Positions 4,070 through 25,649 of a DNA stretch of 25,649 nt are shown here, one piece after another. The position numbers and the translations under genes are program-made. Below the pieces are notes generated by a model that made no database searches, had not been told where the DNA came from, and saw only the letters and a list, made by a program, of their open reading frames with translations. Each line of letters starts with the position of its first letter. The first letter of the stretch is position 1. Source of the DNA: Chitinophagaceae bacterium (GTDB lineage Bacteria > Bacteroidota > Bacteroidia > Chitinophagales > Chitinophagaceae); assembly GCA_947442905.1 (NCBI GenBank), contig CANEWV010000001.1, forward strand, positions 1 to 25,649, read 5' to 3'.

Positions 4070-7000
4070 TTAGAACCCAACGTTGATACCAACAGTAATT
4101 GTGCGTTGGTTAGCTACGGTGTTTCTGTCAACACCAAAATTGGTAGTGCCGTTTCCGTTTGAAGAAACCTCAGGATCAGGTCCTGGATATGCTGTTAAGA
4201 TAAGCAAGTTGTTTCCTGAAACATAAAAACGAGCATTTGAAATTTTGATTTTTTCCAACATATTTTTTGGAATATTGTATCCAATTGTTAGGGTTCTTAA
4301 CTTAATAAAATCACCTTTAAATACATTGATGTCAAGAGGGAAAGAAGAACCGTTAGAAACGTTATCTCCAAACACAGCTCTTGGAAATTCAGTAACATCT
4401 CCAGCTTTCTGCCATCTATTTAATACACCTACTTCATTATTCCAGAAACGTTGGTCTCTTAAACCTGCTTGTGTACCATAATACAACCAGTTACCCATTT
4501 GGTAGGTAAATAAAGCATTCAATTCAAAATTCTTGAATCGTAGATTGTTTTCAAAACCGCCAAATATTTTAGCGTGTGTATTTTTGTATACAATCGCATC
4601 TGCACTACTTACAGTTGGAGCTACGCTACCATCTGCATACATGAAACGAGATTGACCCGCTGGTGCAACGTGTTGGAATAATACTTGTCTACCTTGAGCA
4701 TTCAAGAAAATTCTACGTCCAGAAGCTGGATCAACGCCCGCTGTTCTTGTTACAAACAACATACCAATTGGTTGACCAGGTATTGTGATGCTTGGGTTTT
4801 CTAGGCCACCTGTAGAACCAATGATATTAGTGATACCAGGTGCTAAAGACAATACTTTATTATCGTTGGTTGATAAATTAAATGAAGTAGTCCAAGAGAA
4901 ATCTTTGTTTTGAACTACGTTGTATTTAATATCAAATTCAAAACCTCTATTGTACATAGAACCAATGTTGGTAGGGATATTTGATGGTAAACCAGCAGAT
5001 GGAGGTTGTGGTACAAATAATAATAAACCGTCGTTGTTACTATTGTAGTATCCGATCTCTGCAGTTAAACGATCATTAAATAAACCAAAGTTTAAACCAA
5101 CATCCGTTTTTTTACTCGTTTCCCAAGTAAGGTTTGGATTACCTGCTTGGCTATAACCTACAGTTCCAGCACTTCCATATAAACCAGAGCTAAATGTTGA
5201 CAATGAAGCAAAGTTTCCTAAGCCACCAATATTACCAACTTTACCATAGCTACTTCTTAAACGTAAGCTGCTAAATACTTTGTCTAACTTGATGTTCTGA
5301 ATGAATTTTTCAGATAGCACATCCCAGCTTGCAGACACACCCCAGAAAATACCATACTTACTATTCACACCTAATTGAGATGCTCCATCTCTACGTACGT
5401 TAGCCGTTAAGAAATATTTTCTTTTATAATTATATTGTCCACGAGCAAACTCTGAGTACAAATAGTTTTCTCCAATACCTAGTCCAGAAGTGTTAGGTGT
5501 AACCCATCCACCCTGAATATTTGTAAATGCAGGATCCGCAACAGTTACACGGTTTAAACCATAGCTGTTTTGGTCAGATTTTTGTTGCTCAATACCTGCA
5601 AGCACACTAACTGTATGGTCTTGTGCAAACACTTTATCAAATTGAGCAGTAGTTGTCCAAACCCAACGTTTGTTTTTGTTAAATATAGCAGAAACAGAAC
5701 CTGTAGTTGAAAAACCTTCTCCAGATAATGGATGAGAAAATACATCATTGTCAACCATTAAATAATCAAGTCCATATTGTGTTCTTACAGCTAACCAATT
5801 TACAGGTTTGAACTGTGCGTATAAGTTGCTAATTAAGTGTTCGCCATAGCTATTAGATCTATTTAAATCCATCGTAATTTGTGGATTGTAAAAACCTACT
5901 TGTCCTAATTTATTACCCATAACACCAATCAATCCATTTGCTTGGTTATAAGAACCATCCGCATTGTAAGGACCAACGTTAGGTGCAGTTATTAAAGCCA
6001 CACGACCTAAACCAGCTGTTGCAAATGCATCACCCAATGATCCAGAACTTGTTGCAGCTGTGTTTTTATCGCTTGTGTATTGGATTTTACCACCCATGCT
6101 AAAAAACTTACCTGCTTTATGATCTACGTTCATTAATAATGTTAAACGCTTAAAATCATTTCTATTGATGATACCTTCTTGCTCTGTGTAACCAGTAGAA
6201 AAATAATAGCTAGTAGATTCATTAGCACCAGATAAACTAATGGTGTTGCTATGTTGTAAACCTTGGCGGTAAACTAAATCAGCCCAATTGGTATTAATGA
6301 TTTTACCATCTGCACCAACAGTTGTTGCAAAAGCATTTGTTGCCGCATTAAATGTTCCAGCATTTCTTAATGCTTCGTTTTTATAGTCGGTGTATTGTTG
6401 TGCATCCAATACTTGTTGTAAACGCTGTGGATTACTAAATCCAATCCAGCTATCTAATGTTACTTTAGAACGGCCCGGCTTACCTTTTTTAGTGGTAATA
6501 AATAAAACACCATTGGCAGCACGGCTACCATAAATAGCAGTTGCAGCAGCGTCTTTAGCAACGTCAACACTTTCAATATCATTTGGATTGATAGAAGATA
6601 AAACGTTACCCGCAGCATTTGTAGAACTACCATCACCTGTAAATACAGGTACACCATCTACTACGATAAGTGGATATGATGATAATGAAATAGAGTTTGC
6701 GCCTCTAATTCTTAAAACAGGTGGCGCATTTAATACACCACTAGGAATTACTACTTGTACACCAGCAGCTCTACCGCCCAAAGCTTGTTCAAAACTCTGT
6801 GTAGGCTTGTTTGCTAAAGCTTCACCCTTAACACTAGCGATACTTCCTGTGATATCTCTTTTCTTTTGCGTACCATATCCAACTACTACTACTTCATTTA
6901 AGGCTTTATCTTCTGGAGATAAAGAAACTGTAATAGTTGATACACCTGCAATACTTACTTCTTTAGAATCAAATCCTACATAAGTAATTTTTAAACTTTT

Positions 7001-8210: not shown

Positions 8211-9716
8211 ATGAAAAACAAAGCACCAGAATTAACATTTAAATATCTAAAAGAAGACTTGCCTGCAGGTCTTGTTGTGTTTTTAGTAGCCTTACCTCTA
8301 TGCCTTGGTATTGCATTAGCCTCAGGAGCACCTTTATTTTCAGGAATCATTGCAGGTATTGTGGGCGGCATTGTGGTAGCACTTGCTAGTGGTTCAAACG
8401 TAAGTGTAACAGGCCCTGCAGCCGGATTAACTGTCATTGTATTAAATGGTATTAACGACCTTGGTAATTATAATTTTTTCTTATTGGCAGTTGTACTTGC
8501 TGGTATTCTTCAAATAGTACTCGGCTACTTAAAAGCGGGTGTAATTGGTTACTACTTTCCATCAAGTGTAATAAAAGGGATGCTTGCAGCAATTGGCATC
8601 ATTTTAATTTTAAAACAAGCACCTATCGCCGTTGGATATGTAAAAGGTTTAGCAACGCCTTATCATATCATGTCGATAGTAATTTCAAGTATTTCAATTG
8701 CTATTATATTAATATGGGATTTGCCATTTATTAAAAAGTTTGCAATTAGCAAATGGGTGCCTGGTGCATTAATTGCTGTAATTGTTGGGACGGGTATTAA
8801 CGAATTTATGGGCAACTACAATCCTGCCTTACAATTAGTAGATACACAATTAGTGAAACTCCCTGTAGCAAATTCGATAGGTCAATTTGCACAGCAATTT
8901 ACTTTTCCTGACCTGTCTGGATTTTTACAACCAAAAGTTTATATACTTGCTGTAACCATAGCAATTATTGCCAGTCTCGAAAGTTTATTAAGTACCGAAG
9001 CCGGCGATAAATTAGACCCGCAAAAAAGAATTACACCCACCAATCGTGAATTAAAAGCACAAGGTTTAGGTAATGTAATTTCAGGACTTATTGGAGGATT
9101 ACCCGTTACAGCCGTTATTGTCAGAACCTCTGCTAATGTGAATGCAGGTGCTAAAACAAAACTATCGGCTATTATTCATGGGGTATTTTTATTAATGAGC
9201 GTTATTTTACTAGCCTCAATTTTAAATAAAATCCCTTTGGCTTGTTTAGCGGCCGTTTTACTTGTAGTGGGCTATAAACTTGCTAAGGTTTCCTTATTCA
9301 AGCAAATGTATAAGCTTGGCTGGGAGCAATTCATACCATTTATCATTACAGTAGTTGCGATTCAATTTTCTGATTTATTAAAAGGAATTGCACTGGGTAT
9401 GATCGTAGCTATTTTTTATATTTTACGTGCAAATTTTAGAAGAGATTATTTGATTCATCACGACAAACAAAAAGAAGGTGGTGCTATCACCATTCAGTTA
9501 ACAGAGCATGTGACATTCTTAAATAAAGGTAGCTTGGCTATCAAACTATTTGAAATTGAAAACGGAACGCATGTTGTTATTGATGGAACGAATGCACATT
9601 ACATTGACCTAGATATTTTAGAAATAATCTACAATTTTAAAAATACAGCTACCGAAAAAAATATAACGCTAGAGCTAGTAAATGTTCCAGCTTTTAAAGG
9701 AAGCTTTGGGCACTAA
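8211..9716 (+). CDS. SulP/SLC26-family anion transporter with short STAS domain
   Basis: A 501-residue inner-membrane transporter. The membrane part covers about residues 15-410 and shows the SLC26/SulP hallmarks: LPAGLVVFLVALPLCLGIA near the N-terminus, VSVTGPAAGLTVIV, SLESLLSTEAGDKLDP, and GLGNVISGLIGGLPVTAVIVRTSANVNAGA. The last 75 residues (from about AITIQLTEHVTFLNKGSL) form a STAS domain with the expected VVIDGTNAHYIDLDILEII strand-helix unit; it is short, with no long C-terminal tail. Family members carry sulfate, bicarbonate, dicarboxylates or halides. No carbonic anhydrase or sulfate-assimilation gene is next to it, so the ion is undetermined. It starts 7 bases after the DinB-like gene. 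Confidence 0.95.
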   Translation: MKNKAPELTFKYLKEDLPAGLVVFLVALPLCLGIALASGAPLFSGIIAGIVGGIVVALASGSNVSVTGPAAGLTVIVLNGINDLGNYNFFLLAVVLAGILQIVLGYLKAGVIGYYFPSSVIKGMLAAIGIILILKQAPIAVGYVKGLATPYHIMSIVISSISIAIILIWDLPFIKKFAISKWVPGALIAVIVGTGINEFMGNYNPALQLVDTQLVKLPVANSIGQFAQQFTFPDLSGFLQPKVYILAVTIAIIASLESLLSTEAGDKLDPQKRITPTNRELKAQGLGNVISGLIGGLPVTAVIVRTSANVNAGAKTKLSAIIHGVFLLMSVILLASILNKIPLACLAAVLLVVGYKLAKVSLFKQMYKLGWEQFIPFIITVVAIQFSDLLKGIALGMIVAIFYILRANFRRDYLIHHDKQKEGGAITIQLTEHVTFLNKGSLAIKLFEIENGTHVVIDGTNAHYIDLDILEIIYNFKNTATEKNITLELVNVPAFKGSFGH

Positions 9717-9720
9717 GCCT

Positions 9721-9747
9721 AGAGGTATTTAATTAGCCTCTTTTTTT
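9721..9747 (+). terminator. Weak candidate terminator after the SulP gene
   Basis: AGAGG (9721-9725) can pair with CCTCT (9737-9741) around an 11-base loop, directly followed by a T run. The stem is only 5 bp. It overlaps the last codons and stop of the convergent PepSY-type gene. Weak, but placed where a terminator is expected. Confidence 0.4.
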
Positions 9748-10284
9748 ATTGCGAATAAGTTTAGGGCCATACCATAGCCAAAAGCCTGTAGTACAAAATA
9801 AAAATAAAGCGCTGCCCATAATGAGTGTGTAAGCAAGCTTTATGGGCTCTCCTTTGGTATTAAAATAAGTATCTAAATAGGAAGCGTCATGTATGTCTTC
9901 AATAAAATCTGATTTGCGCAGGTTAACCTGTAACACATTACCTGTGGCTCCATCAAGCTGAACCTCCCAATAATGTTTAGCATATACAAACTTAACAATA
10001 CCCTTATCTTTTCGAATATCGATACGGTCTAAATCAGTGGCTAACGAATTATCAAAACGCTTTAGTAACACACTGTCAGCGATTGTATGTAAAGTTGCTA
10101 TTGGTTTCCAAACTGCAAGGTTGGTAGAAGTTCCTTTAGAAGTTGCGGGCAAAAGCCATCCATTTGTATTTTTCTTCCATCCTAGTAAAACGCCAGTTAT
10201 TGCAACAACAAAAAAGAAGATAAATAAAACAGCCCCCATCAAACGGTGTACTTTTCTAAAGATTCTTAAAACAGCTACTTGCAT
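9733..10284 (-). CDS. PepSY-type two-helix membrane protein
   Basis: A 183-residue membrane protein. The N-terminus has the pattern of PepSY-associated membrane proteins, with a basic segment RIFRKVHRLMG (His13) leading into a long membrane helix at about 14-36 (GAVLFIFFFVVAITGVLLGW). A soluble segment of roughly 115 residues follows, with a PepSY-like strand pattern (WEVQLDGATGNVLQV), and then IEDIHDASYLD ahead of a second membrane helix at about 153-172 (TLIMGSALFLFCTTGFWLWYG). Related proteins are often linked to iron or heme and redox functions in Bacteroidota. The two His residues at the helix ends could be ligands, but that is inference. It converges on the SulP gene, and its upstream region is shared with the five-gene array. 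Confidence 0.82.
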   Translation of the reverse strand: MQVAVLRIFRKVHRLMGAVLFIFFFVVAITGVLLGWKKNTNGWLLPATSKGTSTNLAVWKPIATLHTIADSVLLKRFDNSLATDLDRIDIRKDKGIVKFVYAKHYWEVQLDGATGNVLQVNLRKSDFIEDIHDASYLDTYFNTKGEPIKLAYTLIMGSALFLFCTTGFWLWYGPKLIRNKKRG

Positions 10285-10460: not shown

Positions 10461-11225
10461 ATGGAAGTACATCATCACTCACATAAGCCCAAAAACTGGA
10501 AAGAATACATCACAGAATTTATTATGCTCTTTGCAGCAGTTACCCTTGGTTTTTTTGCAGAAAATTTAAGAGAGCACAGCATTATTTCGCACCGTATTGA
10601 GCAAAATAAGGTTGCCATTTTAAAAGATTTAGAAAATGATGCAGTTACAATCGATAGTCTTTTAGCAAATGAACAACTTATCATCAATAGATTTGATAGG
10701 GTAATCAATCTTTTATACTTACAAAAAAATAAAGTTATTAATGAATCTCAATTGATTGATTCCATTAAAGCATTTCCGGAAATGATTGCTGCAACATTTA
10801 CACTTTATGTAAATAATAGTTCATTTAAAAATATGCAATCTAGTGGTTTACTAAGTTATGTAGAAGAAGAGGATCTGAAAAATAGTTTATCTTATTATTA
10901 TGAAGTTGTTTTTAAAAGAATAGAAAGTAATAATGTATTTTTTGATCAAGCAGGTAAAGAGTTTGGCTCCGCATTGCCACTGGGCATTGGCTCTTATTTT
11001 AGAAAAATGAGGACTGATCAATCTAATTATGATTTAAATAAACCAAGCAACTATGTAAACTTTATGCTAAGCTTACAAGAAACAAAAAATATCTTACAAT
11101 CAGAAAAATTCATTTACGATATTCAAAAATATTACAATCAAATTTTCGTATACCAGATGGCGCTGAAAATGGCTAAAGAAGAAAATGGTAAATTATTGAA
11201 ATTATTAAAATCAGAACATTCATAA
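10461..11225 (+). CDS. Array paralogue 1 of 5: His-cluster single-pass membrane protein
   Basis: 254 residues, function unknown. The N-terminus is MEVHHHSHKPKNWKEY, a His cluster (H4, H5, H6, H8), followed by one membrane helix at about residues 17-33 (ITEFIMLFAAVTLGFFAEN) that starts with E19 and ends with E34. R37-E38-H39 follows, then a helical domain with coiled-coil character (HRIEQNKVAILKDLENDA). A second conserved block, FKNMQSSGLLSYV, lies at 122-134 and leads into LSYYYEVVFKR. The layout, including an SSG block followed by Leu and a YY pair, recalls DUF6090-type proteins of Bacteroidota (from memory, not searched). It opens the array, after a 176-bp intergenic region, and ends 1 base before the next start. 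Confidence 0.8.
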   Translation: MEVHHHSHKPKNWKEYITEFIMLFAAVTLGFFAENLREHSIISHRIEQNKVAILKDLENDAVTIDSLLANEQLIINRFDRVINLLYLQKNKVINESQLIDSIKAFPEMIAATFTLYVNNSSFKNMQSSGLLSYVEEEDLKNSLSYYYEVVFKRIESNNVFFDQAGKEFGSALPLGIGSYFRKMRTDQSNYDLNKPSNYVNFMLSLQETKNILQSEKFIYDIQKYYNQIFVYQMALKMAKEENGKLLKLLKSEHS

Positions 11226-11226
11226 A

Positions 11227-11925
11227 ATGGAAGTACACCGCCCTAAATTTTTAAAAGGATTTGTAGAAGAAGTTTTTGTTATTCTTCTAAGTATATCATT
11301 AGCCGTTGCCGCCGAAAGAATGGTAGAGCATTATGTTCATACCAAACAAGGAGAAGCAGCACTTGTAAGACTTGCAGCAGAAATGAAAAGAGACGTAGTA
11401 GATTTTAAATTTAATGTAAACATTCATAAAAATTCAGTTTTAGCGATAGATCAAATTACAGCCTGGTCTGCTGGAGATATTGAAATTAGTGACGATTCGC
11501 TTTCTATATACCTCTCTAATGCGCTTGATTATACATTTTTTGCTAGCAACACTTCAGAGTATGAATCTTTAAAAGCAACAAGCAAGCTAGCGTATATCGA
11601 AAATCATGAATTGCTATCAAAAATCATTGTTAGCTATAACCGTTACGAAGATTTTAAAATTTCTACCAATGTTGGCACCGATCTAGTTCAAAAGATATTT
11701 GCAAATCTTAGAAATAAAGTGAAATACAAATTTAGATCTATTGAAGAGCAACCGCATTACATTTTTGATGGCACAAGCATCAGACAACATTTGAAGGGAA
11801 ATCAAGAACTACTAAATTTATTACAAGAGAAAAAACTCGCTGATACCTTAGCTTTTATCTGGAACCAAAGAGGACTAGAAAGAACAAACGAATTAATTAA
11901 ACAAATAGAAGAAGAAACAAAATAA
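11227..11925 (+). CDS. Array paralogue 2 of 5: divergent member without the His cluster
   Basis: 232 residues, function unknown, the shortest and most divergent of the five. The N-terminus MEVHRPKFLKGFVEEV keeps Met-Glu-Val-His but lacks the His-rich run; the membrane helix at about 12-30 (VFVILLSISLAVAAERMVEH) lacks the TLGFFAEN wording of its sisters, though it retains an Ala-Glu near the helix end and E-H after it. The mid-block is YESLKATSKLAYI, with TS-K in place of SSG-L, at the matching position (113-125). The helix pattern VEEVFVILLSISLAV looks closest to classic DUF6090-type helices. It starts 1 base after paralogue 1, and its stop is immediately followed by the next start codon. It may be a structural partner rather than a metal-binding member; that is inference. 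Confidence 0.75.
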   Translation: MEVHRPKFLKGFVEEVFVILLSISLAVAAERMVEHYVHTKQGEAALVRLAAEMKRDVVDFKFNVNIHKNSVLAIDQITAWSAGDIEISDDSLSIYLSNALDYTFFASNTSEYESLKATSKLAYIENHELLSKIIVSYNRYEDFKISTNVGTDLVQKIFANLRNKVKYKFRSIEEQPHYIFDGTSIRQHLKGNQELLNLLQEKKLADTLAFIWNQRGLERTNELIKQIEEETK

Positions 11926-12720
11926 ATGGAAGTACATCACCACCCTCATATTCCTACACACGCAAAGCCTTGGAAAGAATATTTATTAGAAGGCTTAATG
12001 ATTTTTGTTGCGGTAACACTTGGTTATGGTGCCGAAAATGTTAGAGAGCATTATGTAGAAACAAAAAAAGCACTTATCAGTGCCAAAAATTTATACGTAG
12101 ACGTAATCAACGACTCTATCGGTTTTGCAAATACTAGAAGAAATAGAAACAAGCAAGACAGTTGTTTTGAAATCATTAATGCCCATTATAACAACAACGA
12201 GCTTGATAAAGAAATACCAGCAGTTTATGCTGCTCATGGCCATATAACAAGAAGAATGTTATACCAAATGAATAGTCTTGCATTAGATGAAGTTAAAAGT
12301 TCTGGGACTTTAAAATTTTTAGAATCAGACGAACTAAAAGCTGGCATTCAACGATATGCTAATTTAGCAGCTGGCCTTAAGTTAAGAGAACAGCGAGAAT
12401 TTGGTTATATAGATAGAATGTTAGACCCTATTTCAACTAAAAATTTTGAATTTAATTTTAATAGAGCTGCCGGAGACAACTTTAAAATTGATAGTAATAA
12501 AATAGTTGTTACAGTGCCAATTCCAGCCAATATAAAAATCATGAAAAAAGATCAATTAGATTGGGATAATTATATTGCAATTCTAGGGATGCTCCAAACA
12601 ATTAGACAATCTACCGATAAAGACTATATAGAGGGGGCGCAAGCTCAGTGTCACGAACTATTAACCTTACTTAGAAACTACCTTATAAAGCACGATGCTT
12701 TAGAAAATAACAATCATTAA
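11926..12720 (+). CDS. Array paralogue 3 of 5: His-cluster single-pass membrane protein
   Basis: 264 residues, function unknown. The N-terminus MEVHHHPHIPTHAKPWKEY has five His residues (H4, H5, H6, H8, H12), then a membrane helix at about 20-36 (LLEGLMIFVAVTLGYGAEN), with E22 at its start and E37 at its end, and VREHYVE after it. The mid-block LDEVKSSGTLKFL has SSG at residues 125-127, followed by ELKAGIQRYANL. The C-terminal part is long and differs from the sisters (IVVTVPIPANIKIMKKDQLD). It starts directly after the stop of paralogue 2 with no spacer, which favours coupled translation, and ends 2 bases before paralogue 4. Confidence 0.78.
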   Translation: MEVHHHPHIPTHAKPWKEYLLEGLMIFVAVTLGYGAENVREHYVETKKALISAKNLYVDVINDSIGFANTRRNRNKQDSCFEIINAHYNNNELDKEIPAVYAAHGHITRRMLYQMNSLALDEVKSSGTLKFLESDELKAGIQRYANLAAGLKLREQREFGYIDRMLDPISTKNFEFNFNRAAGDNFKIDSNKIVVTVPIPANIKIMKKDQLDWDNYIAILGMLQTIRQSTDKDYIEGAQAQCHELLTLLRNYLIKHDALENNNH

Positions 12721-12722
12721 AA

Positions 12723-13508
12723 ATGGAAGTACATCACGCCCATCATCCAAATCACAAGAAAAAGATTTCAGAATATTTACTGGAATTTTTTATGTTGTTT
12801 TTTGCAGTGACACTTGGTTTCTTTGCTGAAAACTATAGAGAACATAGTATTATAGAACACCGCATGCAAGAAAATTATGCTGCCATTATTGTTGATTTAG
12901 AACAGGATAACTTAAAAATAGATAGCATTTTTACAGAGGCAAAAAACGGCATCAACTTAATTACTTTATCGCATGTGTTGTATAAGTACAAAACAGGAGG
13001 CTTTACTGAAAAAGATCTCTTGGATAGTGTCTACAATATTAAAACGATTCCAAGCTATACGACGCTATTTGTTAACAATACGACGTTTAAAAATATGCAG
13101 TCTAGTGGTTTACTTAGCTATGTTACTGATAAAGATATAAAAACCGGTTTATCTTATTATTACGAAGTGTTATTTAAGAAATTAAATGATAATAATAAAC
13201 TTTTTGATGATGTAGGAAATAATTATTTAGATAAATACTTGATTTTTAATCAAGGGGCAGGTACAAGAAAATTTTTTCCTGAAATGTATAAAGATATTAG
13301 TCCTGAAAATGGATTTGCAGATCCAAAAGAATATCGAAAATTTTTAATGAGTCTCAAATCTACAAAATCTATTCTCACGTCAGACGATTTTGTGTCTGCC
13401 ACGAATGTATACATATCTAGGTATTTTGGTTATCAGCGCATACTTAACACAGTAAAAGCAAACAACAATAAATTAATCCAGCAATTAAAAGCGCAACTAG
13501 AACACTAA
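12723..13508 (+). CDS. Array paralogue 4 of 5: His-cluster single-pass membrane protein, close to paralogue 1
   Basis: 261 residues, function unknown. The N-terminus MEVHHAHHPNHKKKISEY has His at 4, 5, 7, 8 and 11. The membrane helix is at about 19-35 (LLEFFMLFFAVTLGFFAEN), with E21 and E36 bounding it and YREH after. The mid-block FKNMQSSGLLSYV lies at 122-134, identical in wording and numbering to that of paralogue 1, and LSYYYEVLFKKL follows as in paralogue 1. These two are the closest pair although two other members separate them. It starts 2 bases after paralogue 3 and ends 11 bases before paralogue 5. Confidence 0.8.
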   Translation: MEVHHAHHPNHKKKISEYLLEFFMLFFAVTLGFFAENYREHSIIEHRMQENYAAIIVDLEQDNLKIDSIFTEAKNGINLITLSHVLYKYKTGGFTEKDLLDSVYNIKTIPSYTTLFVNNTTFKNMQSSGLLSYVTDKDIKTGLSYYYEVLFKKLNDNNKLFDDVGNNYLDKYLIFNQGAGTRKFFPEMYKDISPENGFADPKEYRKFLMSLKSTKSILTSDDFVSATNVYISRYFGYQRILNTVKANNNKLIQQLKAQLEH

Positions 13509-13519
13509 TCAACATTTAA

Positions 13520-14281
13520 ATGGAAGTACATCACGCACACCACCCGGCACACAAGAAAAAATGGTCAGAATATTTACTAGAATTTTTCATGTTGTTTTTT
13601 GCGGTAACGCTAGGTTTTTTTGCTGAAAATGTAAGAGAACACCAGATTGTCATTGAAAGAAAAAATCAGAATTTACAAGCCATGGTGCAGGATTTAAAAA
13701 GAGATTCTGCTCAATTAGAACATAGAATTGTAGAGTACACAAAAGCAATTAGAACATTTGAAAATTTAAAGTACGCATCTTATCAGTACCACAATAAATT
13801 AATGAATGAACCCGACTTTATTAATTATGTAACCAATCAATACGATTCATCAAATATTGGTGATAGCTTTTTCTCAAACAATTCGGCTTATAAAAACACC
13901 ATTGCTACAGGTAGTTTAAGTGTAATTGAGTCTTTGCCTGTCAAACAATTGATTGCAGAATATTATGAAGAGCTCAGTGTAAAACTTTCTGATAACAATA
14001 GAAATTTAGATGATGAACTCAATGAATACATTCGTACCGATATGCAAATTGGGAATTCTATCAATTCTGAAGTGACTAAAAGTTTATCTAAACTAACACA
14101 CCAACAAGTACTAGAAGATCATAAAAAAAATCCGGCTTTTAAAGCCGCCATATTAAGCCCAACCTTTACCATCCACACCAACAAATTTGAAATGAGGTGC
14201 GATTATTACTTATACCTGCTCAAACGGTTCTTACAAGTAAACAAAGCCCTTTTGCATGAGTTAGAACTTGAAAAGGTATAG
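13520..14281 (+). CDS. Array paralogue 5 of 5: His-cluster single-pass membrane protein
   Basis: 253 residues, function unknown. The first 41 residues are nearly the same as those of paralogue 4: MEVHHAHHPAHKKKWSEY, the helix LLEFFMLFFAVTLGFFAEN, then VREH. The rest has diverged: the mid-block is YKNTIATGSLSVI (124-136), with TG-S-L in place of SSG-L-L, followed by AEYYEELSVKLSDNN. The middle part is rich in charged helical sequence (RKNQNLQAMVQDLKRDSAQ). An almost constant N-terminal anchor with a changing outer domain suggests that the anchors interact with each other or with a common partner. It is the last member; 60 bases follow to the next gene, including a long hairpin. Confidence 0.8.
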   Translation: MEVHHAHHPAHKKKWSEYLLEFFMLFFAVTLGFFAENVREHQIVIERKNQNLQAMVQDLKRDSAQLEHRIVEYTKAIRTFENLKYASYQYHNKLMNEPDFINYVTNQYDSSNIGDSFFSNNSAYKNTIATGSLSVIESLPVKQLIAEYYEELSVKLSDNNRNLDDELNEYIRTDMQIGNSINSEVTKSLSKLTHQQVLEDHKKNPAFKAAILSPTFTIHTNKFEMRCDYYLYLLKRFLQVNKALLHELELEKV

Positions 14282-14300: not shown

Positions 14301-14342
14301 TAGCTTATATTTAAGTATTCATTAATATTTAAATATAAGCTA
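14301..14342 (+). promoter_or_regulatory. 19-bp hairpin ending on the start codon of the DUF5107-TPR-GH16 gene
   Basis: The arm at 14301-14319 (TAGCTTATATTTAAGTATT) pairs with 14324-14342 (AATATTTAAATATAAGCTA) around the loop CATT. All 19 positions pair, 18 by Watson-Crick and one by G-U (14315 with 14328). The last base of the right arm is the A of the ATG at 14342. In RNA it would cover the whole ribosome-entry region; in DNA, the outer 14 bp form a perfect inverted repeat that could bind a protein. No T run follows, so it is not an intrinsic terminator. The structure is read directly; the role is inferred. Confidence 0.65.
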
Positions 14343-17300
14343 TGAAAAAATTACTTTTTTTATTGCTATCATTTACTGCAGCTGCAAGTTTTAAATCCGT
14401 AGCGCAGGCGCCTTCAAGTATTAAAGTATCTCAACAGACTTTTGTCACGTATCCTTTTTCGGATCCGGATCCAATTGCGTCACAGACGGCCATTTATCCA
14501 TATTATAGGTTTGATGGTTTTACCAATAAGCCAGTTAACAAAAAATGGACAGTTGTAGAACTCGAAAACGATTATATCAAAGTTCTAATCCTTCCAGAAA
14601 TTGGCGGAAAAATTTGGACCGCTATTGATAAAACAACGGGTAAAGAATTTTTATACAACAACAAAGTTGTCAAGTTTAGGGATATTGCGATGCGCGGCCC
14701 ATGGACAAGTGGCGGACTAGAAGCCAATTATGGAATTATAGGTCATACACCCAATTGCGCTACACCAGTAGATTACAGCACTAAAAATAATATCGATGGT
14801 AGCGTTAGTTGCTTTATTGGAGTGCTAGATTTATTAACCAGAACCAATTGGCAAATAGAAATTAACCTACCCAAAGACAAAGCATACTTTACCACAAATT
14901 CAATATGGAATAATAATACAAGTATTGGTCAACCCTACTATCATTGGATGAACGCCGGTATCAAAACAAAAGGGAATCTCGAATTTATTTATCCGGGGAC
15001 AAATTATATTGGGCATGGCGGCGAATATGCGTCATGGCCAATCAACGAAGACAATGGCAAGCGTATCAATTTTTACGAAGAAAATAATTTTGGCACCTAC
15101 AAATCATACCATGTAATTGGCAAACAAACCGATTTTTTTGGCGCTTACTGGCATGACGATAATTACGGTATGGTACGCTATGCTCCATATGACAATAAAG
15201 CAGGAAAAAAGATTTGGATTTGGGGACTATCACGTCAGGGTATGATTTGGGAAAAAATATTAACCGACAACGATGGTCAGTACGCTGAAATACAGTCTGG
15301 ACGGTTATTTAACCAAAATGCCTCTAACAGTAGCTTCACACCATTTAAGCATATAGAATTTGCGCCGCATGCTACGGATACCTGGAAAGAATATTGGTAT
15401 CCCGTTAATAAAACAAAAGGTATTGTTGTAGCTGGCGAATCTGCTGCACTTAATATTAAAATAGAAGATGGATTTCTAAAATGGTACTGCTCACCAGTTG
15501 CATTTTTTAATGACACATTAGAAATCGTTGTAGATGGCAAGCAAATAGTAAAAAAAGTAATTAATGCAAAACCACTTCAAACAATAAGCGATTCAATTAA
15601 AATTGGACTCGGAAAAACAGATCTTTCAATTTCACTAACCAAACAACAACTCACATGGAAAAGTGATCCTACATATAATGCGCTTTCTAGACCACTAGAA
15701 ACGCCTGTAAAGTTTGAATGGAACACTGCAGAAGGCCTAGTTATTCAGGGTAAAGAACTCATGGACCAAAAAATGTTTGCAGAAGCTGAAATTAAATTAA
15801 AGGAGTCTTTAACAAAAGACCCTTATCATTTACAAGGGCTCATTAAACTAGCAGAATTATACATTAGAAACGGTGAAGACCAAAAAGCATTTGATGTTTC
15901 TAAAACTGCTATATCTATTGATGCACACCATGGTGCAGCAAATTATTATTATGGCTTAAGTGCAGCGCATTTGCATAAAGAGGCAGATGCTATTGATGGC
16001 TTTAGCATTGCAACCATGAGTGTAGAATATAAATCAGCAGCATTAACAGAACTTGCAAAAATACATGCCCAACACAAAAGATGGGACAAAGCCCTGTCCT
16101 ACGCATCACAAGCAACGGATTATAATAAATACAATAGTGATGCCATCGCAATTCAAATAATAGCAAAGCAACAATTAGGAAATTTTTCCGGGGCAAAACA
16201 ATTGATTACAAATCTAGAAAAAGAGCAGCCTTTAAATTTGTATGTAAAATGGTTTACAAACAAGCTTGCATTTAAAAATGAACTACCTGAAGAATCTATT
16301 CTAGAACTAGCCTCATTTTATGCCAACATAAAACTTGAATCAGAATTATTAAAAATATTAGAAGCGCTCCCCAATCATCCATTGGCTATTTATTGGAAAG
16401 CCTATTTACATAAATCCAATACGAGTAAAGCAAATGAATTATTAGCTAAAGCGAATAGCTCATCAACATTACTCATATTTCCTTTTAGGACATCCTTTAT
16501 ACCTATTTTACAATGGGCTGTAAAAAATAGTACGAGTTGGAAACCCAGTTATTATTTGGCCCTCTTAATGCATGATAAAAATAAAAAAGAAGAAGCATTA
16601 CAAATGGTTACTGCACTAGGCACAGCACCTACAGATGCTCACTTTTATGGACTTCGAGCTGTTTGGAATAAGGGCCAGACAAATGCCAAAGAATTAGACT
16701 TACATAAAGCAATACAATTAGACCCATCTGCTTGGAGATATCAAAAACTACTCGTTCAACACTATCTCCAAACAAAAAATTATGATAAAGCACTTGTGGT
16801 AGCAGAAAGTTTTAAAAAACAAAGCTCCAATGAAAATTTTATCATGGATATGCTTTTAGCTAAAACGCTACTCCTCAATAAAAAATACAAAGAATGTGAT
16901 GAGTTACTTTCAAGCATGGATGTTATTCCATTTGAAGGCTCTACCGACGGAAGAGCTTTATATTGGGAGGCAAAAATGATGCAAGCTGTTACTGCATTAA
17001 AAAATAAAAACTATAGAACTGCTATTCAATTTATTCAAGAAGCGCAAGAATGGCCAGAAAATTTAGGTGCAGGTAAACCTTATGAGTCTGATATAGACAG
17101 TAGGCTAGAACAGTACTTACAATATGTTTGTTTGAAACAACTAAACAAACTAGATAGTGCGCAAATATTACTTAAAAAAATTACTGCATTTAAACCAGGC
17201 ATTTACAACACTATTAGAAATTTTCAAGCGGCCAATAATTTAATTACCAAGTGGGCTTACAATGAGCTACATGAAAGCTTTGATTGGAATGCATGGATGC

Positions 17301-18253
17301 AAACTCAAATTAATAAATACCCTCAATTTAAAGAAACCTTTAACTGGGTATTAAGCAAAGCAAATAATAACAATGACAGCAGCCTAGCATCTGAAGATCC
17401 TTGGATGCGCGTTATTGATGAGAGTATGGAATCATTAGAACTCAATAATCATGATGCATATATTTTTATCCAAAAACCAGAAAGAAGAAATGATCAAACA
17501 AAATGGGAACTAGTATGGGAGGATAATTTTAATACGGGATATTTAGACACTACTTACTGGAGTAAAATTGGTTTATTTTCTACCCCTAAATGGAAAATGC
17601 CTAAAGAAAAATGGAGAGACAATACAGGCTGCTTTAGATACATCACTGATACCGATGATAGAGTTGTACAGTTTGATAATGAAAATATTATTTTAAGAGG
17701 CATTGTAAACAATGATACCATTAACGGAGATCCAAGACCTCTTTTAACAGGGGGCATTTATAGTTACAATAAATTTGCTTTTCAATATGGACGCATAGAA
17801 GTGCGTGCTAAATTAGATGCTGCCCATGGAGCTTGGCCTGCCATTTGGATGCTTTCTGAAAAAGATATGTATCCAAATCAAAACAATGGAGAAATGGATA
17901 TTATGGAAAGGCTCAATCATGATAGTTTTGCTTATCAAACAACACACAATCATGCTACCATAACATTAAAACAGGAAGTGCCTAAAAAATTTAACACCGG
18001 AAAAATTGACCCAAGCGGATATAACACTTACAGTGTAAGTTGGTACCCCGATAAATTAGTGTATGCTATTAATGGTATTGAAACCATCACCTATCCAAAA
18101 GTTGCAGGTGGTAGTACGTATCAATGGCCCTTTGATCAGCCCTTTTACTTAATTATTGATCAGCAACTTGAAGGCAGCTGGCCTGGCAAAGTCACCAATT
18201 TAAAGGAGCTACCTATAAACATGACTGTTGATTGGGTTAAGTTATATCAGTAA
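14342..18253 (+). CDS. Exported DUF5107-TPR-GH16 fusion protein
   Basis: A 1303-residue exported protein with three regions. (1) After a signal peptide (1-21), residues about 37-345 match DUF5107-type beta domains: YPFSDPDPI, LPEIGGKIWTAIDK, the WIWGLSRQGMIWE segment (around 292-303) and EIQSGRLFNQ. (2) Residues about 462-1000 are helical TPR-like repeats. (3) Residues 1055-1303 form a glycoside hydrolase family 16 domain: WELVWEDNF start, GRIEVRAKLDAAHGAWPAIW, the catalytic E-x-D-x-x-E as E1184-M-D1186-I-M-E1189, and the typical end MTVDWVKLYQ. GH16 enzymes cut beta-1,3- or beta-1,4-glucans or galactans by a retaining mechanism, so a periplasmic or surface polysaccharide hydrolase is likely. 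DUF5107 with TPR is familiar; joined to GH16 it is unusual. No T9SS sorting domain is present. Confidence 0.88.
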   Translation: MKKLLFLLLSFTAAASFKSVAQAPSSIKVSQQTFVTYPFSDPDPIASQTAIYPYYRFDGFTNKPVNKKWTVVELENDYIKVLILPEIGGKIWTAIDKTTGKEFLYNNKVVKFRDIAMRGPWTSGGLEANYGIIGHTPNCATPVDYSTKNNIDGSVSCFIGVLDLLTRTNWQIEINLPKDKAYFTTNSIWNNNTSIGQPYYHWMNAGIKTKGNLEFIYPGTNYIGHGGEYASWPINEDNGKRINFYEENNFGTYKSYHVIGKQTDFFGAYWHDDNYGMVRYAPYDNKAGKKIWIWGLSRQGMIWEKILTDNDGQYAEIQSGRLFNQNASNSSFTPFKHIEFAPHATDTWKEYWYPVNKTKGIVVAGESAALNIKIEDGFLKWYCSPVAFFNDTLEIVVDGKQIVKKVINAKPLQTISDSIKIGLGKTDLSISLTKQQLTWKSDPTYNALSRPLETPVKFEWNTAEGLVIQGKELMDQKMFAEAEIKLKESLTKDPYHLQGLIKLAELYIRNGEDQKAFDVSKTAISIDAHHGAANYYYGLSAAHLHKEADAIDGFSIATMSVEYKSAALTELAKIHAQHKRWDKALSYASQATDYNKYNSDAIAIQIIAKQQLGNFSGAKQLITNLEKEQPLNLYVKWFTNKLAFKNELPEESILELASFYANIKLESELLKILEALPNHPLAIYWKAYLHKSNTSKANELLAKANSSSTLLIFPFRTSFIPILQWAVKNSTSWKPSYYLALLMHDKNKKEEALQMVTALGTAPTDAHFYGLRAVWNKGQTNAKELDLHKAIQLDPSAWRYQKLLVQHYLQTKNYDKALVVAESFKKQSSNENFIMDMLLAKTLLLNKKYKECDELLSSMDVIPFEGSTDGRALYWEAKMMQAVTALKNKNYRTAIQFIQEAQEWPENLGAGKPYESDIDSRLEQYLQYVCLKQLNKLDSAQILLKKITAFKPGIYNTIRNFQAANNLITKWAYNELHESFDWNAWMQTQINKYPQFKETFNWVLSKANNNNDSSLASEDPWMRVIDESMESLELNNHDAYIFIQKPERRNDQTKWELVWEDNFNTGYLDTTYWSKIGLFSTPKWKMPKEKWRDNTGCFRYITDTDDRVVQFDNENIILRGIVNNDTINGDPRPLLTGGIYSYNKFAFQYGRIEVRAKLDAAHGAWPAIWMLSEKDMYPNQNNGEMDIMERLNHDSFAYQTTHNHATITLKQEVPKKFNTGKIDPSGYNTYSVSWYPDKLVYAINGIETITYPKVAGGSTYQWPFDQPFYLIIDQQLEGSWPGKVTNLKELPINMTVDWVKLYQ

Positions 18254-20833: not shown

Positions 20834-23695
20834 ATGAAAAAATTCATACTGTTTGGCCTAGTGTTTACTTTCATAAGTGCTTCAATTACCGCACAAATAA
20901 TACAACCTAGTTTAGTAAAGGGTTTGCAATACCGCATGATTGGGCCTCACAGAGGAGGAAGAACAGTTGGTATGTGTGGTGTTCCATCACAACCAAATGT
21001 GTTTTATATGGGTGTGAACAATGGTGGCGTTTGGAAAACAACCGATTTTGGACATACATGGAATCCAATTTTCGATACTCAAAATACTGGATCTGTGGGT
21101 GATGTTGCTGTGGCTGTTTCAAATCCAAATGTAGTGTATGTTGGAAGTGGCGAAGGAATTCAAAGACCCGACTTATCTATTGGTAATGGACTCTATAAAT
21201 CTATTGATGCTGGAAAGACATGGAAAAATATGGGCCTACAAGATGCACAACAAATTGGTGGCATCAGTGTAGATCCAACCAATGAAAATAGAATTTTTGT
21301 TGCAGCACTCGGCCATCCTTATGGACCCAACAAAGAAAGAGGCGTTTACAAAAGTATTGATGGCGGTAAAACACTCGAGCAGGTTTTATATATCGATGAG
21401 AACACAGGTGCTGTGCAGGTTACTATCGATCCTAATAACACACAAATTGTTTTTGCAACACTTTGGGCGGCAAGACAAGGGCCTTGGGAAAATGGTGTAT
21501 TTAATGGGCCAGCAAGTGGATTATATAAATCAGTAGATGGCGGCAAAAATTGGAGAAAAATTACAAATGGTTTTCCTAGTACTACACAAGATGGTTTGGG
21601 TAGAATTGGTTTTACCATTGCTCCTAGTAATTCAAATAGAATGTATGCCACTGTTGATGCAGAAAAAAATGGTGGTATTTACAGAAGTGATGACGGCGGA
21701 GAAAATTGGTACTTACTTACAACAGATGCTAGGTTTTGGGGAAGAGGTTCAGATTTTGCAGAAGTAAAATGTGATCCGAAAAATGAAGACATAGTTTATT
21801 CTGCAAACGTTGTTATGTGGAAGTCTACCAATGGTGGAAAAAATTGGACAGGAATTAAAGGTGCGCCAGGTGGTGATGACTACCACCGTATTTGGATCAA
21901 TCCAAACAATCCAGATATTATGGCCATTGGATTAGATCAAGGAGGTATTGTTACGGTAAATGGTGGTGAAACATACTCAAGCTGGTACAACCAACCCACT
22001 GCGCAATTTTACCACGTTAGTACAGACAATGCTTTTCCTTACAATGTATATGGTGGCCAGCAAGAAAGTGGCTCTGTGGGTATTGTGTCTAGGAGTAACG
22101 ATGGTAATATTACTTTTAGAGAATGGCATCCTGTTGGCGTAGAAGAATATGGTTATGTTGCCCCAGATCCACTAGATCCAAATATTATTTATGGTGGAAA
22201 AATTACAAAGTTTGATAAGCGCACAGGTCAAGTACAAAACATTGCTCCTGAACCCGTAAGATCTGGTAAAGTTCGCTTTTTGAGAACTGCGCCCGTACTT
22301 TTTTCTCCAGTAGACAATAAAACATTATTTTTTGCGGGTAACGTTATTTTTAAAACCTTAGATGGCGGCAATAGCTGGCAAACCATTAGTCCTGATTTAT
22401 CTAGAGAAGCTTGGGATATCCCTAATAGCGTTGGCGTATATACTACAGAACAATTAAAAACAATGCCACGTAGAGGTGTTGTATATACACTTGCCCCTTC
22501 TTACCAAAATATAAATATTTTATGGGCTGGTACGGATGATGGCCTCATTCACATTACAAAAGATGGCGGAAAAACATGGAAAAATATTACACCACCAGCT
22601 ATAACTGCATGGAGTAAAATTTCTATGATTGAAGCAAGCCGATTTGATGAACAAACCGCCTATGTAGCAGTCAATAGAATTAGATGCGACGACATGCATG
22701 CCTATATCTATAAAACAACTGATGGTGGCGCTAGCTGGAAACTAATTACAACAGGTTTACCCAATGAACCTATTAATACAGTAAGAGAAGATGGTATAAA
22801 AAAAGGATTACTATTTGCAGGATCTGAAAATGCAATATACACATCATTAGATGGCGGAAATAACTGGCAGTCTTTGCAATTAAATATGCCAGCAACATCC
22901 ATTAGAGATTTGGTTATTAAAGATGATGATATTGTTGTAGGAACGCACGGAAGAAGTTTTTGGATTTTAGATAACATTACACCACTTCGTCAAATAAATA
23001 ATAGTACTTCAAAAGAAACGGTTTTATTTAAACCACAACCAGCTATTCGTGTAAGATGGAATATGAATACAGATACACCGCTTCCGCCAGAAGAACCCGC
23101 TGGTCAAAACCCGCCAGATGGAGCAGTGATAGATTTTCATATACCCGTTAATACAAACGGACCCGTTGTACTAAGCATTACAGATGCAAAAGGAAAAATA
23201 ATTAGAACATTTTCGAGTAATGATACTATGTACACTATTCCAGCAGTAAATATTCCTTTATACTGGATCAGGCCTCAAAGTGTTTTATCTAATTCAGTAG
23301 GTGCGCACCGCTTTTTATGGGACTTAAAATATGCGCCCATTAATATACCAGTTAGCTACCCTATGACGGCTGTAAAAAACAATACAGCTCCGGAAGCTAC
23401 AGCACCATGGGTAATGCCAGGTTCATACACAATTACTTTACAAGTTAATGGGAAAACTTATACGCAGCCAATAGAAATTAAAATAGATCCACGTGTAAAA
23501 ACGAGTGTACAAGACTTACAAAAACAACATGATCTTTCTATGATTTGTTATGAGGGCCGTAAAAAAACAATCGATAAAAATCCAGCACTGTATAGAAAAT
23601 TTAGTGCGCTATTTGAAATATTAGAACAAACAGAAATGGCGCCAACAAGCCAGGTCATCAATGCAGTATTAGCAGCACAAAAAGAATTAAACTAG
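20834..23695 (+). CDS. Secreted Asp-box (BNR/sortilin-like) beta-propeller protein
   Basis: I choose the ATG at 20834 (953 residues), which opens the signal peptide MKKFILFGLVFTFISASITAQ; an ATG 18 bases upstream only adds MYKRIP. Between residues about 66 and 690 there are ten Asp-box repeats of the form S/T-x-D-x-G-x-x-W or close to it: VWKTTDFGHTW, LYKSIDAGKTW, VYKSIDGGKTL, LYKSVDGGKNW, IYRSDDGGENW, MWKSTNGGKNW, IFKTLDGGNSW, IHITKDGGKTW, IYKTTDGGASW and IYTSLDGGNNW. These indicate one or two beta-propellers of the Vps10/sortilin type. GTHGRSFWILDNITPLRQ closes the propeller part, and a beta-rich region and a helical tail follow. Such proteins are often named glycosyl hydrolases, but no catalytic motif supports that here. 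No T9SS sorting domain is seen. Confidence 0.85.
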   Translation: MKKFILFGLVFTFISASITAQIIQPSLVKGLQYRMIGPHRGGRTVGMCGVPSQPNVFYMGVNNGGVWKTTDFGHTWNPIFDTQNTGSVGDVAVAVSNPNVVYVGSGEGIQRPDLSIGNGLYKSIDAGKTWKNMGLQDAQQIGGISVDPTNENRIFVAALGHPYGPNKERGVYKSIDGGKTLEQVLYIDENTGAVQVTIDPNNTQIVFATLWAARQGPWENGVFNGPASGLYKSVDGGKNWRKITNGFPSTTQDGLGRIGFTIAPSNSNRMYATVDAEKNGGIYRSDDGGENWYLLTTDARFWGRGSDFAEVKCDPKNEDIVYSANVVMWKSTNGGKNWTGIKGAPGGDDYHRIWINPNNPDIMAIGLDQGGIVTVNGGETYSSWYNQPTAQFYHVSTDNAFPYNVYGGQQESGSVGIVSRSNDGNITFREWHPVGVEEYGYVAPDPLDPNIIYGGKITKFDKRTGQVQNIAPEPVRSGKVRFLRTAPVLFSPVDNKTLFFAGNVIFKTLDGGNSWQTISPDLSREAWDIPNSVGVYTTEQLKTMPRRGVVYTLAPSYQNINILWAGTDDGLIHITKDGGKTWKNITPPAITAWSKISMIEASRFDEQTAYVAVNRIRCDDMHAYIYKTTDGGASWKLITTGLPNEPINTVREDGIKKGLLFAGSENAIYTSLDGGNNWQSLQLNMPATSIRDLVIKDDDIVVGTHGRSFWILDNITPLRQINNSTSKETVLFKPQPAIRVRWNMNTDTPLPPEEPAGQNPPDGAVIDFHIPVNTNGPVVLSITDAKGKIIRTFSSNDTMYTIPAVNIPLYWIRPQSVLSNSVGAHRFLWDLKYAPINIPVSYPMTAVKNNTAPEATAPWVMPGSYTITLQVNGKTYTQPIEIKIDPRVKTSVQDLQKQHDLSMICYEGRKKTIDKNPALYRKFSALFEILEQTEMAPTSQVINAVLAAQKELN

Positions 23696-24693
23696 AATTT
23701 AGGACATCTTAATTTAAAAGCTTTGCTTTTATTGTCCAATATGTAAATGAGTGAGAATTCGGAAGATTGATAAAATCTCGAAGAAGCTAGTGTAGTGCCG
23801 GCAGCAATGTCATACGTAAAGCCTGCTCTAATATGATTCCATTCGAGTCCAACGTATGGAATCATAGTTTCTTTTAGTCTACTCCAAAGTCCAGCATATA
23901 GTTCAAGCCCATTTTCTGTTCCCAAATAATAACTGAAGGCGCCGCCAACTAAAAGTTCGTTAGTCTCACCTTGTTTTTGATATTGAAAGCTGGTATGAAG
24001 TGATGCTGCATCTGATAAAGCAAAATAAGCACCGCCATGAATATTTACCCTGCTATTTGTAAAATAGGTTGGCGTAATAAAGCCTACCGGAGGTTTTGCA
24101 AAATGATAATAAGAAGCGCCTACATAAAATATATTATTGTCGGAAGTTGAGCCTGTATATAAAATGCCCGCATTAATATCAGTGGTATTTTTTGTGAAAT
24201 TATTTCCTAAAATCATCTCTGCCGAAGTACCTGTAAATCCTCCAGCTGTTAATTGATCTTCAAAATTTGCTTTTAACGGATCAAAGCGGTACATACTATA
24301 ATTTACCTGAAAACCAAGTGCAATAGAATGATTGGCATTTTCATCGAGTGCTTTACTATAACTTACAGAAGCTGCAATATTATTATCATTGAGTAATTTA
24401 TTGCCACTCTGATCTGACAATATTAATAACCCAACACTTAACTTATCGTCTTCCTTAATATACTTTTTTAAAATAGGCGCGTCTAACGATAGTGTTTTTG
24501 TCGCGTATGGATTATTGAATTCAGGCAACTGTGTTCTACTATTTAAAGCTGCGCGAAGTGATCCACTAAAATTTCCGGTGTTGGCAGGATTGATGGTTAA
24601 TGGAGACGCAAAAAATTGCGAAAAGTGTGGATCCTGTGCATAGGAATATCCATGAACAAGTAACACGGCGATAAATAATATTAATTTTTTCAT
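23692..24693 (-). CDS. PorP/SprF-family outer-membrane protein of the type IX secretion system
   Basis: A 333-residue outer-membrane beta-barrel protein. The signal peptide ends YAQ (residue 19-20), followed by the family hallmark DPHFSQFFASPLTINPANTG, then alternating strand patterns such as ALGFQVNYSMYRFDP and IHGGAYFALSDAASLHTSFQYQ. SprF of Flavobacterium johnsoniae, in the same family, is needed for export of the large adhesin SprB, which carries a type B sorting domain. Here the gene starts 5 bases after the stop of such a type B protein, so this copy is very likely its dedicated partner. Its stop overlaps the stop of the BNR gene on the other strand. Confidence 0.93.
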   Translation of the reverse strand: MKKLILFIAVLLVHGYSYAQDPHFSQFFASPLTINPANTGNFSGSLRAALNSRTQLPEFNNPYATKTLSLDAPILKKYIKEDDKLSVGLLILSDQSGNKLLNDNNIAASVSYSKALDENANHSIALGFQVNYSMYRFDPLKANFEDQLTAGGFTGTSAEMILGNNFTKNTTDINAGILYTGSTSDNNIFYVGASYYHFAKPPVGFITPTYFTNSRVNIHGGAYFALSDAASLHTSFQYQKQGETNELLVGGAFSYYLGTENGLELYAGLWSRLKETMIPYVGLEWNHIRAGFTYDIAAGTTLASSRFYQSSEFSLIYILDNKSKAFKLRCPKF

Positions 24694-24698
24694 GCTAC

Positions 24699-25649
24699 TT
24701 ATCTTACAACGCTAATATTACCTTTATGAATTTCCAATTCTCCAGTTAAAAGTTCTATAACTATTTGATATACATAAGTGCCTTGTGCCACTAGCTGTCC
24801 ATTGTAATAACCATTCCATCCAAAACTAGTATCGTTGGTTTTACCATTTGTTTTTTCAAACATTTTTTGACCCCACCTATTAAATACCTGAAACTGTTTT
24901 ACCTGTTTTACATCCTTACCTGCTATCACATAAAACACATCATTTAAACCATCGCCATTGGGTGAAAAAGCATTAGGAAGTGCAATATGTGATCTATGAT
25001 ATGCATTTACTTGGAGCGTGGCAGAGTCTTTACAAAAAAGCGCTGTAGTTCCAACAATCTTTAATAAAGTATTTGTGTTAGTAGTTAATATAGGGGTTAA
25101 ACAATTAGTACAACTCAGCCCCTGCGCCGGTGTCCAAACAATAGTAGTTGCTTTATCGCCACTATTTATAGGGAGTAAAGTAGTTGGATCACCACGGTAT
25201 ACATCTATTTGTGTAGGATTAAAACGAATTGAAAATGGAACATACGCTACGCTTGTTTTGTTGTTTGCTGTATTATTTTCAAAAGGCGTAAGTCCACTAT
25301 TTATATAAGCTACCACATTGGTTACATTTTGATTGCGTACAATATGCGTAATGGTTGCGCAGTTTCCTGCAAATGATTGACTGGCCAAAATCCATCCTGA
25401 ACCCAAAAATTTACTAGTAGGCAGCGTGCTATCGCTATCAAAATACCTGACTTGAGTAGCCTGATATAAACTGGTGTACTGATTATCTAAACATACCGTA
25501 CTCGTTATTTGCAAACTATCGGTTTTATAACAACGTACTATTAAATTATTGATAGATATATCAACCGGAAATACTTTAATGTTTGCAAATGTAGAATCTT
25601 CACAACCAAATATACTGATAGCACTTGCTTTAACTAATGTCGTATCAAT
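24699..25649 (-). CDS. Large surface protein with T9SS type B (gliding-motility-associated) C-terminal domain, partial
   Basis: The frame stays open from the stop at 24699 to the right edge (316 residues visible), so the N-terminus is missing; a TTG at 25514 is not a credible start because coding sequence continues upstream (CEDSTFANIKVFPVDISINN). The last 90 residues are the CHU_C-type domain: HIALPNAFSPNGDGLNDVF, then FQVFNRWGQKMFEKTN, GWNGYYNG, GTYVYQIVIE and a GNISVVR end. That domain directs secretion through the type IX system and surface attachment. The visible upstream part is beta-rich, with Cys residues (GLSCTNCLTP) and repeat-like Ig-type modules, as in adhesins. It is co-transcribed with the PorP/SprF gene. 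Confidence 0.9.
   Translation of the reverse strand: MDTTLVKASAISIFGCEDSTFANIKVFPVDISINNLIVRCYKTDSLQITSTVCLDNQYTSLYQATQVRYFDSDSTLPTSKFLGSGWILASQSFAGNCATITHIVRNQNVTNVVAYINSGLTPFENNTANNKTSVAYVPFSIRFNPTQIDVYRGDPTTLLPINSGDKATTIVWTPAQGLSCTNCLTPILTTNTNTLLKIVGTTALFCKDSATLQVNAYHRSHIALPNAFSPNGDGLNDVFYVIAGKDVKQVKQFQVFNRWGQKMFEKTNGKTNDTSFGWNGYYNGQLVAQGTYVYQIVIELLTGELEIHKGNISVVR

Follow-up and report, generated by a model that had tools for sequence, protein, structure and literature searches.

What kind of system is encoded by five adjoining genes that begin so alike and continue so differently? The question is raised by positions 10461 to 14281 of the window, as we call the whole 25,649-nucleotide stretch analysed here (contig CANEWV010000001.1 of a Chitinophagaceae bacterium). 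The genes found there, T1 to T5, each encode a membrane protein made of a short N-terminal anchor, defined as residues 1-37 of T4 and the equivalents in other members, and a larger body, or head. An initial annotation took the five proteins for possible subunits of one hetero-oligomer whose anchors contact each other or a shared partner. Our comparison of relatives favours another answer, which we consider probable: the array would be a collection of exchangeable heads that probably lie in the periplasm and share an anchor that recombines, and not a set of fixed subunits.

The five genes and their family

The five open reading frames lie on the + strand with gaps of 1, 0, 2 and 11 nucleotides (nt), exactly as the initial annotation had it, and its further observations that all five proteins start with MEVH and that four of them carry a His-rich run are confirmed. 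In each protein a single stretch of 19 residues close to the N-terminus clearly stands out as the most hydrophobic. The genes (lengths in amino acids, aa, with their presence at the complete copies of their chromosomal site), their anchor modules and two second conserved blocks are as follows.

10461..11225, + strand: T1, 254 aa, anchor class HHHSHKPKNW, at 8/8 complete site copies
11227..11925, + strand: T2, 232 aa, divergent anchor class with one His, at 4/8 complete site copies
11926..12720, + strand: T3, 264 aa, at 8/8 complete site copies
12723..13508, + strand: T4, 261 aa, at 6/8 complete site copies
13520..14281, + strand: T5, 253 aa, at 2/8 complete site copies
10461..10565, + strand: T1 anchor module, residues 1-35, tail and membrane helix
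11227..11319, + strand: T2 anchor module, residues 1-31
11926..12039, + strand: T3 anchor module, residues 1-38
12723..12833, + strand: T4 anchor module, residues 1-37, with E21, A28, G32 and E36
13520..13630, + strand: T5 anchor module, residues 1-37
10800..10957, + strand: T1 second conserved block (SSG region), 73% identical to 13062-13219
13062..13219, + strand: T4 second conserved block (SSG region), counterpart of the T1 block 10800-10957

All five proteins are homologous, including the outlier T2, which matches the family profile in a profile-profile comparison with a probability of 98.7% (E 1.5e-16, columns 1-153). Their pairwise aa identity ranges from 33 to 95% in the anchors and from 10 to 39% in the bodies; T4 and T5, for example, are 95% identical in the anchor and 23% in the body. 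Some of what had been claimed of the conserved segments needs to be narrowed. Near-constant anchors are a fair description of T4 and T5, less so of T1 and T4 (69%), T1 and T5 (71%) or T3 against T1, T4 and T5 (60-68%), and not of T2 (33-37%), whose anchor reads MEVHRPKFLKG.. without a His run. The second block reads SSG in T1, T3 and T4, but ATS in T2 and ATG in T5, and the Lys segment that had been described as Lys/Trp contains no Trp in T4.

A search with T4 returned 900 homologues at E<=1e-3 among 1176 scored candidates, 120 of which were listed, and a search with T2 returned 46 of 484, a narrower group than that of T4. In 47 orthologue pairs with bodies of at least 88% DNA identity, which are not independent of each other, the median ratio of nonsynonymous to synonymous substitution rates (dN/dS) is 0.002 in the anchor and 0.105 in the body. 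The number of homologues and the ratio in the body together indicate that genes of the T1-T5 type are real and selected. For the comparison of loci we took the best 80 of 278 relatives, so that the sample leans to close relatives. The contigs nearest to the window bear the names Sediminibacterium sp., Chitinophagaceae and Bacteroidetes, and the window itself presumably belongs to a freshwater relative of this kind. Sixteen of the 183 members were left out before counting because they were truncated, duplicate or without a MEV-like start, which leaves 167 complete members and 13,861 pairs. Two pairs of loci overlap on one contig each (L024/L028 and L026/L065); pairs were counted after the removal of exact duplicates, and the run counts given below (180 genes, 104 runs) still include them.

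Exchange of anchors between genes

The relation of anchor to body is best seen in the 121 genes that have a body orthologue, taken as a body of at least 60% aa identity. The nearest anchor DNA lies on the orthologue in 69 of these genes, is tied in 7 and lies on a non-orthologue in 45, or in 42 when bodies of less than 40% identity are required. In 22 of the 121, the anchor of a non-orthologue with a body below 40% is closer by at least 5% of DNA identity. By comparison, five control slices of the body, each of 37 codons and thus as long as the anchor, place the nearest slice on a non-orthologue in only 2-6 genes, and in 0/121 each with the 5% margin and bodies below 40%. The reverse view gives 23 of 232 pairs with bodies above 60% and anchors below 80%, the clearest being L013 against L017 (body 87% at the nt level, anchor 69%). 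These loci carry gene X, a family member absent from the window, whose anchor is T4-like in L017 and L011 (94.6% to T4 of L006) and T1-like in L013 (92.4% to T1 of L006 and 89.5% to the neighbouring T1), with bodies that share 87% DNA identity across the two anchor forms.

Synonymous change between orthologues points in the same direction. Across the 47 pairs, synonymous differences are found at 24% of comparable anchor codons versus 14% of body codons; by ten-codon blocks they amount to 0.22-0.28 in the first four blocks and 0.10-0.12 at codons 51-110, with a smaller rise at codons 111-150, which is the second conserved block. In 21 disjoint pairs the first 40 codons have a value of 0.156 and the remaining codons one of 0.088, whereas 48 control pairs of neighbouring genes show the opposite trend (0.107 and 0.150). 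Seven of the 21 disjoint pairs are significant, all seven with the excess in the first 40 codons, against 5 of the 48 controls, 2 of them that way. At a looser cut of 80%, 9 of 33 pairs differ, 7 with a 5' excess, compared with 16 of 95 controls, 5 that way.

Single tracts can also be followed. In T1 of L002, nt 1-105 are identical to L001, while the rest differs from L001 at 88 positions and from the window at 2 (in 657); the 40 bases before the start equal those of the window, and six synonymous differences between the T1 genes of the window and L002, at gene nt 24-63, all match L001 in the L002 version. This pattern of identity implies an exchanged tract with two borders, one within about 60 bases on its upstream side and the other within about 500 bases on its downstream side. 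Measured as the synonymous rate dS, the excess is not general, and exchange can also bring anchors closer together: the T2 genes of L002 and the window show 0 differences in 137 nt and then 70. Bodies follow orthology and anchors often do not, and the constancy of the anchor is due in part to DNA exchange, a cause absent from the initial annotation. A constant, recombining anchor with non-recombining heads is well supported by these comparisons, and it is this modularity of anchor and body that is new.

Variable array content and rival explanations

Arrays of this family are unevenly distributed. Nine genomes with fetched loci hold 1 to 17 matches each, often on one contig; in the genus group of the genome G001, 36 of 61 sampled genomes have a match and 25 have none, and at the order level a match is found in 12 of 99, although single absences are weak evidence because many genomes are fragmentary. 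Tandem packing such as that seen in the window is common, with 112 of the 180 family genes of the fetched loci in runs of at least two and 73 of 76 internal gaps within runs at or below 30 nt. Run size varies from 1 to 8, and single genes make up 68 of the 104 runs, some of them through contig ends.

The chromosomal site of T1-T5 is found in eight complete copies that share their flanks, a PepSY protein and a DUF5107 protein. The window and L001 carry T1-T5, L002 carries T1-T4, and L003 and L005 carry T1, T3 and T4; L006 has T4, two other genes, T1 and T3, L013 has X, T1 and T3, and L017 has X, T1, T2 and T3. Inside the L006 array, between T4 and T1, the other strand encodes a SCO1/SenC protein and a MORN-repeat protein (5410-6685). 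At a second site, which follows the genes for phenylalanyl-tRNA synthetase and recO on contigs that include both, L071, L075, L068, L061, L076 and L078 hold 1, 1, 2, 3, 3 and 8 members, respectively. In L065 (5700-5978), a frame of 92 residues has an intact anchor and little else before its stop, possibly a decaying member.

The borders of the genes suggest how such content may change. Two junctions of the window are relevant here.

11224..11242, + strand: T1>T2 junction, TAA-a-ATGGAAGTACAC
11923..11941, + strand: T2>T3 junction, TAA-ATGGAAGTACATC, copy of an 18-nt direct repeat at gene starts

A spacer of 1 nt separates T1 from T2 in the window and L002, and T1 from T3 in L003 and L005. A spacer of 8 nt follows T1 in L017 and L011, where T2 is present, and in L006 and L013, where it is absent, and the 8-nt sequences differ. 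The four T1-T3 junctions fit a T2 gene that came or went as an exact unit, cut at the start codon: T3 on the spacer of T1 itself, where T2 is missing, is the product expected from recombination between gene starts, whether by loss or by gain.

These results can be set against the explanations that compete for the array. A fixed hetero-oligomeric complex of five proteins with touching anchors agrees with the tight gene packing, with the conserved anchors and their small-x-x-x-small helices, and with T1 and T3 being retained at 8/8 complete site copies. The joint retention expected of five obligate subunits is not found, however, with T2 at 4/8, T4 at 6/8 and T5 at 2/8 of these copies. Since content differs between close relatives at one site, most runs are single genes and 25/61 genomes of the genus group lack a match, we give a defined complex of T1-T5 only a small probability. 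The initial annotation saw correctly the homologous family, its shared anchor, its diverged soluble part and its packing. Alternatively, the genes could be independent paralogues whose anchors stay alike because of the needs of membrane insertion, through purifying selection without recombination. The anchor dN/dS of 0.002 agrees with this explanation, and so does the finding that anchors carried by unrelated bodies at separate loci show no more synonymous identity than saturation would leave (0.53-0.58 identical codons). Selection on amino acids, however, cannot bring the DNA of an anchor closer to a non-orthologue, produce excess synonymous change between orthologues or leave tracts with sharp borders; nor can it explain that anchors at least 90% alike in aa share 0.70 of their codons within one array and 0.58 elsewhere. 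Such selection alone is already disfavoured, and we regard it as unlikely.

Another concern is that metagenome assemblers may have fused the anchor of one gene or strain to the body of another, given that most sources are contigs of metagenome-assembled genomes and that anchors are the most repeated part. The longest identical stretch between anchors of same-locus paralogues nevertheless has a median of 14 and a maximum of 53 nt (172 pairs), the L017 form of the swapped gene recurs in the separate assembly L011, the two spacer types agree across separate assemblies, and control genes on the same contigs show no 5' excess, all of which makes an assembly artefact very unlikely. It is likewise improbable that the array serves as a bank of immunity proteins or decoys in the membrane, in which every head would neutralise an attacker of its own, such as a bacteriocin, an effector or a phage. 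Lineage-specific arrays, patchy presence and diverse heads would suit such a bank, but the bodies of orthologues are under purifying selection (the median dN/dS of 0.105 given above), T1-T5 have no PADLOC match at E<=0.01, T4 has no match in phage or plasmid collections, and the Pfam scans made reveal no toxin-like neighbour.

Several observations also weigh against the explanation that we prefer, namely interchangeable heads on a recombining anchor. Part of the 45 non-orthologue cases may be noise, because phylogenetic signal is weaker in the conserved anchor than in the body slices, and the 22 genes with a margin are the safer set. The effect measured by dS is not uniform, being higher in the anchor than in the body in 27/47 pairs and in 12/21 disjoint ones, with one undefined by saturation. 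None of the 13,861 pairs combines bodies below 35% with anchors of at least 95% DNA identity, so that no very recent exchange between paralogues has been caught, and the cleanest tract, in T1 of L002, is an exchange between lineages of one gene and not between paralogues. Nearly all loci are metagenome assemblies, the counts of Lys and Arg on either side of the helix do not decide the topology, and no partner gene is in evidence.

Upstream of the array come a PepSY membrane protein on the other strand and, before it, a SulP transporter; the two genes adjoin directly in the window (8211-10284). In relatives, an arginase-family gene, a urocanase and an imidazolonepropionase-like amidohydrolase lie between the SulP and PepSY genes (L005, 3416-8263). 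The downstream neighbour is a single protein of 1303 residues (14342-18253) that combines DUF5107, TPR repeats and a C-terminal GH16 domain. Farther on, at 23692-25649, a PorP/SprF-type protein adjoins a CHU_C domain protein, both related to type IX secretion.

Relation to DUF6090, architecture and meaning

No Pfam or NCBIfam family matches T1-T5 over its cut-off. The likeness to DUF6090-type families suggested in the initial annotation holds for the family more than for the five proteins, since none of T1-T5 matches PF19578 at E<=1, but 18 of 110 aligned family members do so at E<=1e-3. With a curated cut-off of 23.5 bits, the relatives P0079 (25.0 bits) and P0105 (28.6 bits) lie above it and P0115 (18.1 bits) and P0110 (20.2 bits) below. 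In a sample of 41 genomes from the phylum, DUF6090 matches above the cut-off occur in G001 and in two others. These two carry long arrays, and their genus shows 3 to 12 matches in each of 6 genomes out of 8 and none in the remaining two. Our family aligns by hhalign with nine array members of this second genus, all matching PF19578, with a probability of 97.3% (E 2.7e-11, columns 34-153), and it can be placed as a branch beside DUF6090 rather than within PF19578 as curated. Both share architecture, helix pattern and SG block, but DUF6090 has a basic tail of the MLRFFRQIR type where the array family has a MEVH/His-rich one. The spacing of the helix pattern, E, small (+7), small (+11) and N (+16), equals that of DUF6090 (E21/A28/G32/N37 in T4, E28/G35/A39/N44 in the second-genus array), with R in place of N at +16 in T2; this match was read by eye, hhalign having left the helix unaligned.

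The second genus also has tandem arrays with a constant anchor and a variable body, paralogues among 39 members sharing 74% in the anchors and 16% in the bodies. Among 22 of its orthologue pairs, 9 have a significant synonymous excess in the anchor and 0 the reverse, the strongest with 12/37 in the anchor versus 2/184 in the body (p 6e-9), so that in these arrays, too, synonymous change is faster in anchors than in bodies. Two members carry a DUF6090 anchor on a body of 356-358 residues with no other Pfam match (L094 9047-10114, - strand, and its orthologue in L096), possibly a different head on the same anchor. The His run, a possible metal site in the initial annotation, is absent from these arrays, which have the basic tail. 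In our family, 153 of the 167 members have at least four His in the first 16 residues and 8, including T2, have one; the His run is thus not a trait of the superfamily.

What such proteins may do is suggested by their architecture. Small-x-x-x-small pairs pack helices. All 167 members keep E21 and E36 and have a small residue at both position 28 and position 32, and the tight constraint on the anchor together with this pair and the two Glu would suit contacts between helices or with a shared partner. The predicted structure of T4 (predicted local distance difference test, pLDDT, 91.9) has one helix at residues 15-73, membrane part plus stalk, and a main bundle of helices 76-90, 137-172 and 221-260; T2 is predicted with the same helix order (pLDDT 89.1), and the conserved residue pair of the SG block lies in the model at a turn between two short helices. 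Only D58, D62, G129 and Y146 are nearly invariant in the body in 110 members, and as no catalytic set is apparent, binding is to be expected rather than catalysis. An inside location of the N-terminus is suggested by the basic DUF6090 tail and by acidic residues that follow the helix. We therefore picture single-pass, signal-anchored proteins of the DUF6090 superfamily, each with a short cytoplasmic tail and one membrane helix that would continue into a helical bundle, most likely periplasmic. The fixed spacing of E, small, small and E/N would probably let members pair with sisters or with one common membrane partner, and the bundle would be the specific part, binding something outside. Recombination in the shared 5' DNA would replace anchor tracts and give heads other anchors, and whole genes may enter or leave the array as clean units that reach from one start codon to the next. 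A shared interface in the membrane, bearing binding heads that can be exchanged, would fit all of this.

Among known systems, the closest include the helical-bundle ligand-binding domains of chemoreceptors and a DUF3829 lipoprotein (8bsa, 2yfb, 4yjw), but T1-T5 do not have the make-up of chemoreceptor-type sensors, each having one hydrophobic stretch only and no cytoplasmic signalling domain by Pfam. Polymorphic toxin systems (PMC3482391) similarly combine a constant N-terminal part with a variable C-terminal part and change by recombination, but there standalone cassettes replace the C-terminal toxin domains. In contrast, the members of our arrays are complete genes whose heads resemble one fold, with no toxin domain seen. 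We can only tentatively extend the idea to a general head-swapping platform of Bacteroidota, a doubtful but possible role of DUF6090-superfamily arrays. In it the anchor would be both a protein interface and a DNA recombination handle, new periplasmic heads would be fused in frame to compatible anchors, and head genes would be shuffled in and out around one common membrane hub.

Families of unknown function are usually studied gene by gene. Here the evolutionary pattern itself tells the general part, the anchor, from the specific part, the head, and it provides a bacterial case in which the recombination hot spot is the constant end of a membrane protein and not its exposed end. Closely related strains that have or lack T2, T4 or T5 at one site, and one head on different anchors, are natural experiments. 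They make it directly testable what DUF6090-like proteins bind and which partner in the membrane they act through.

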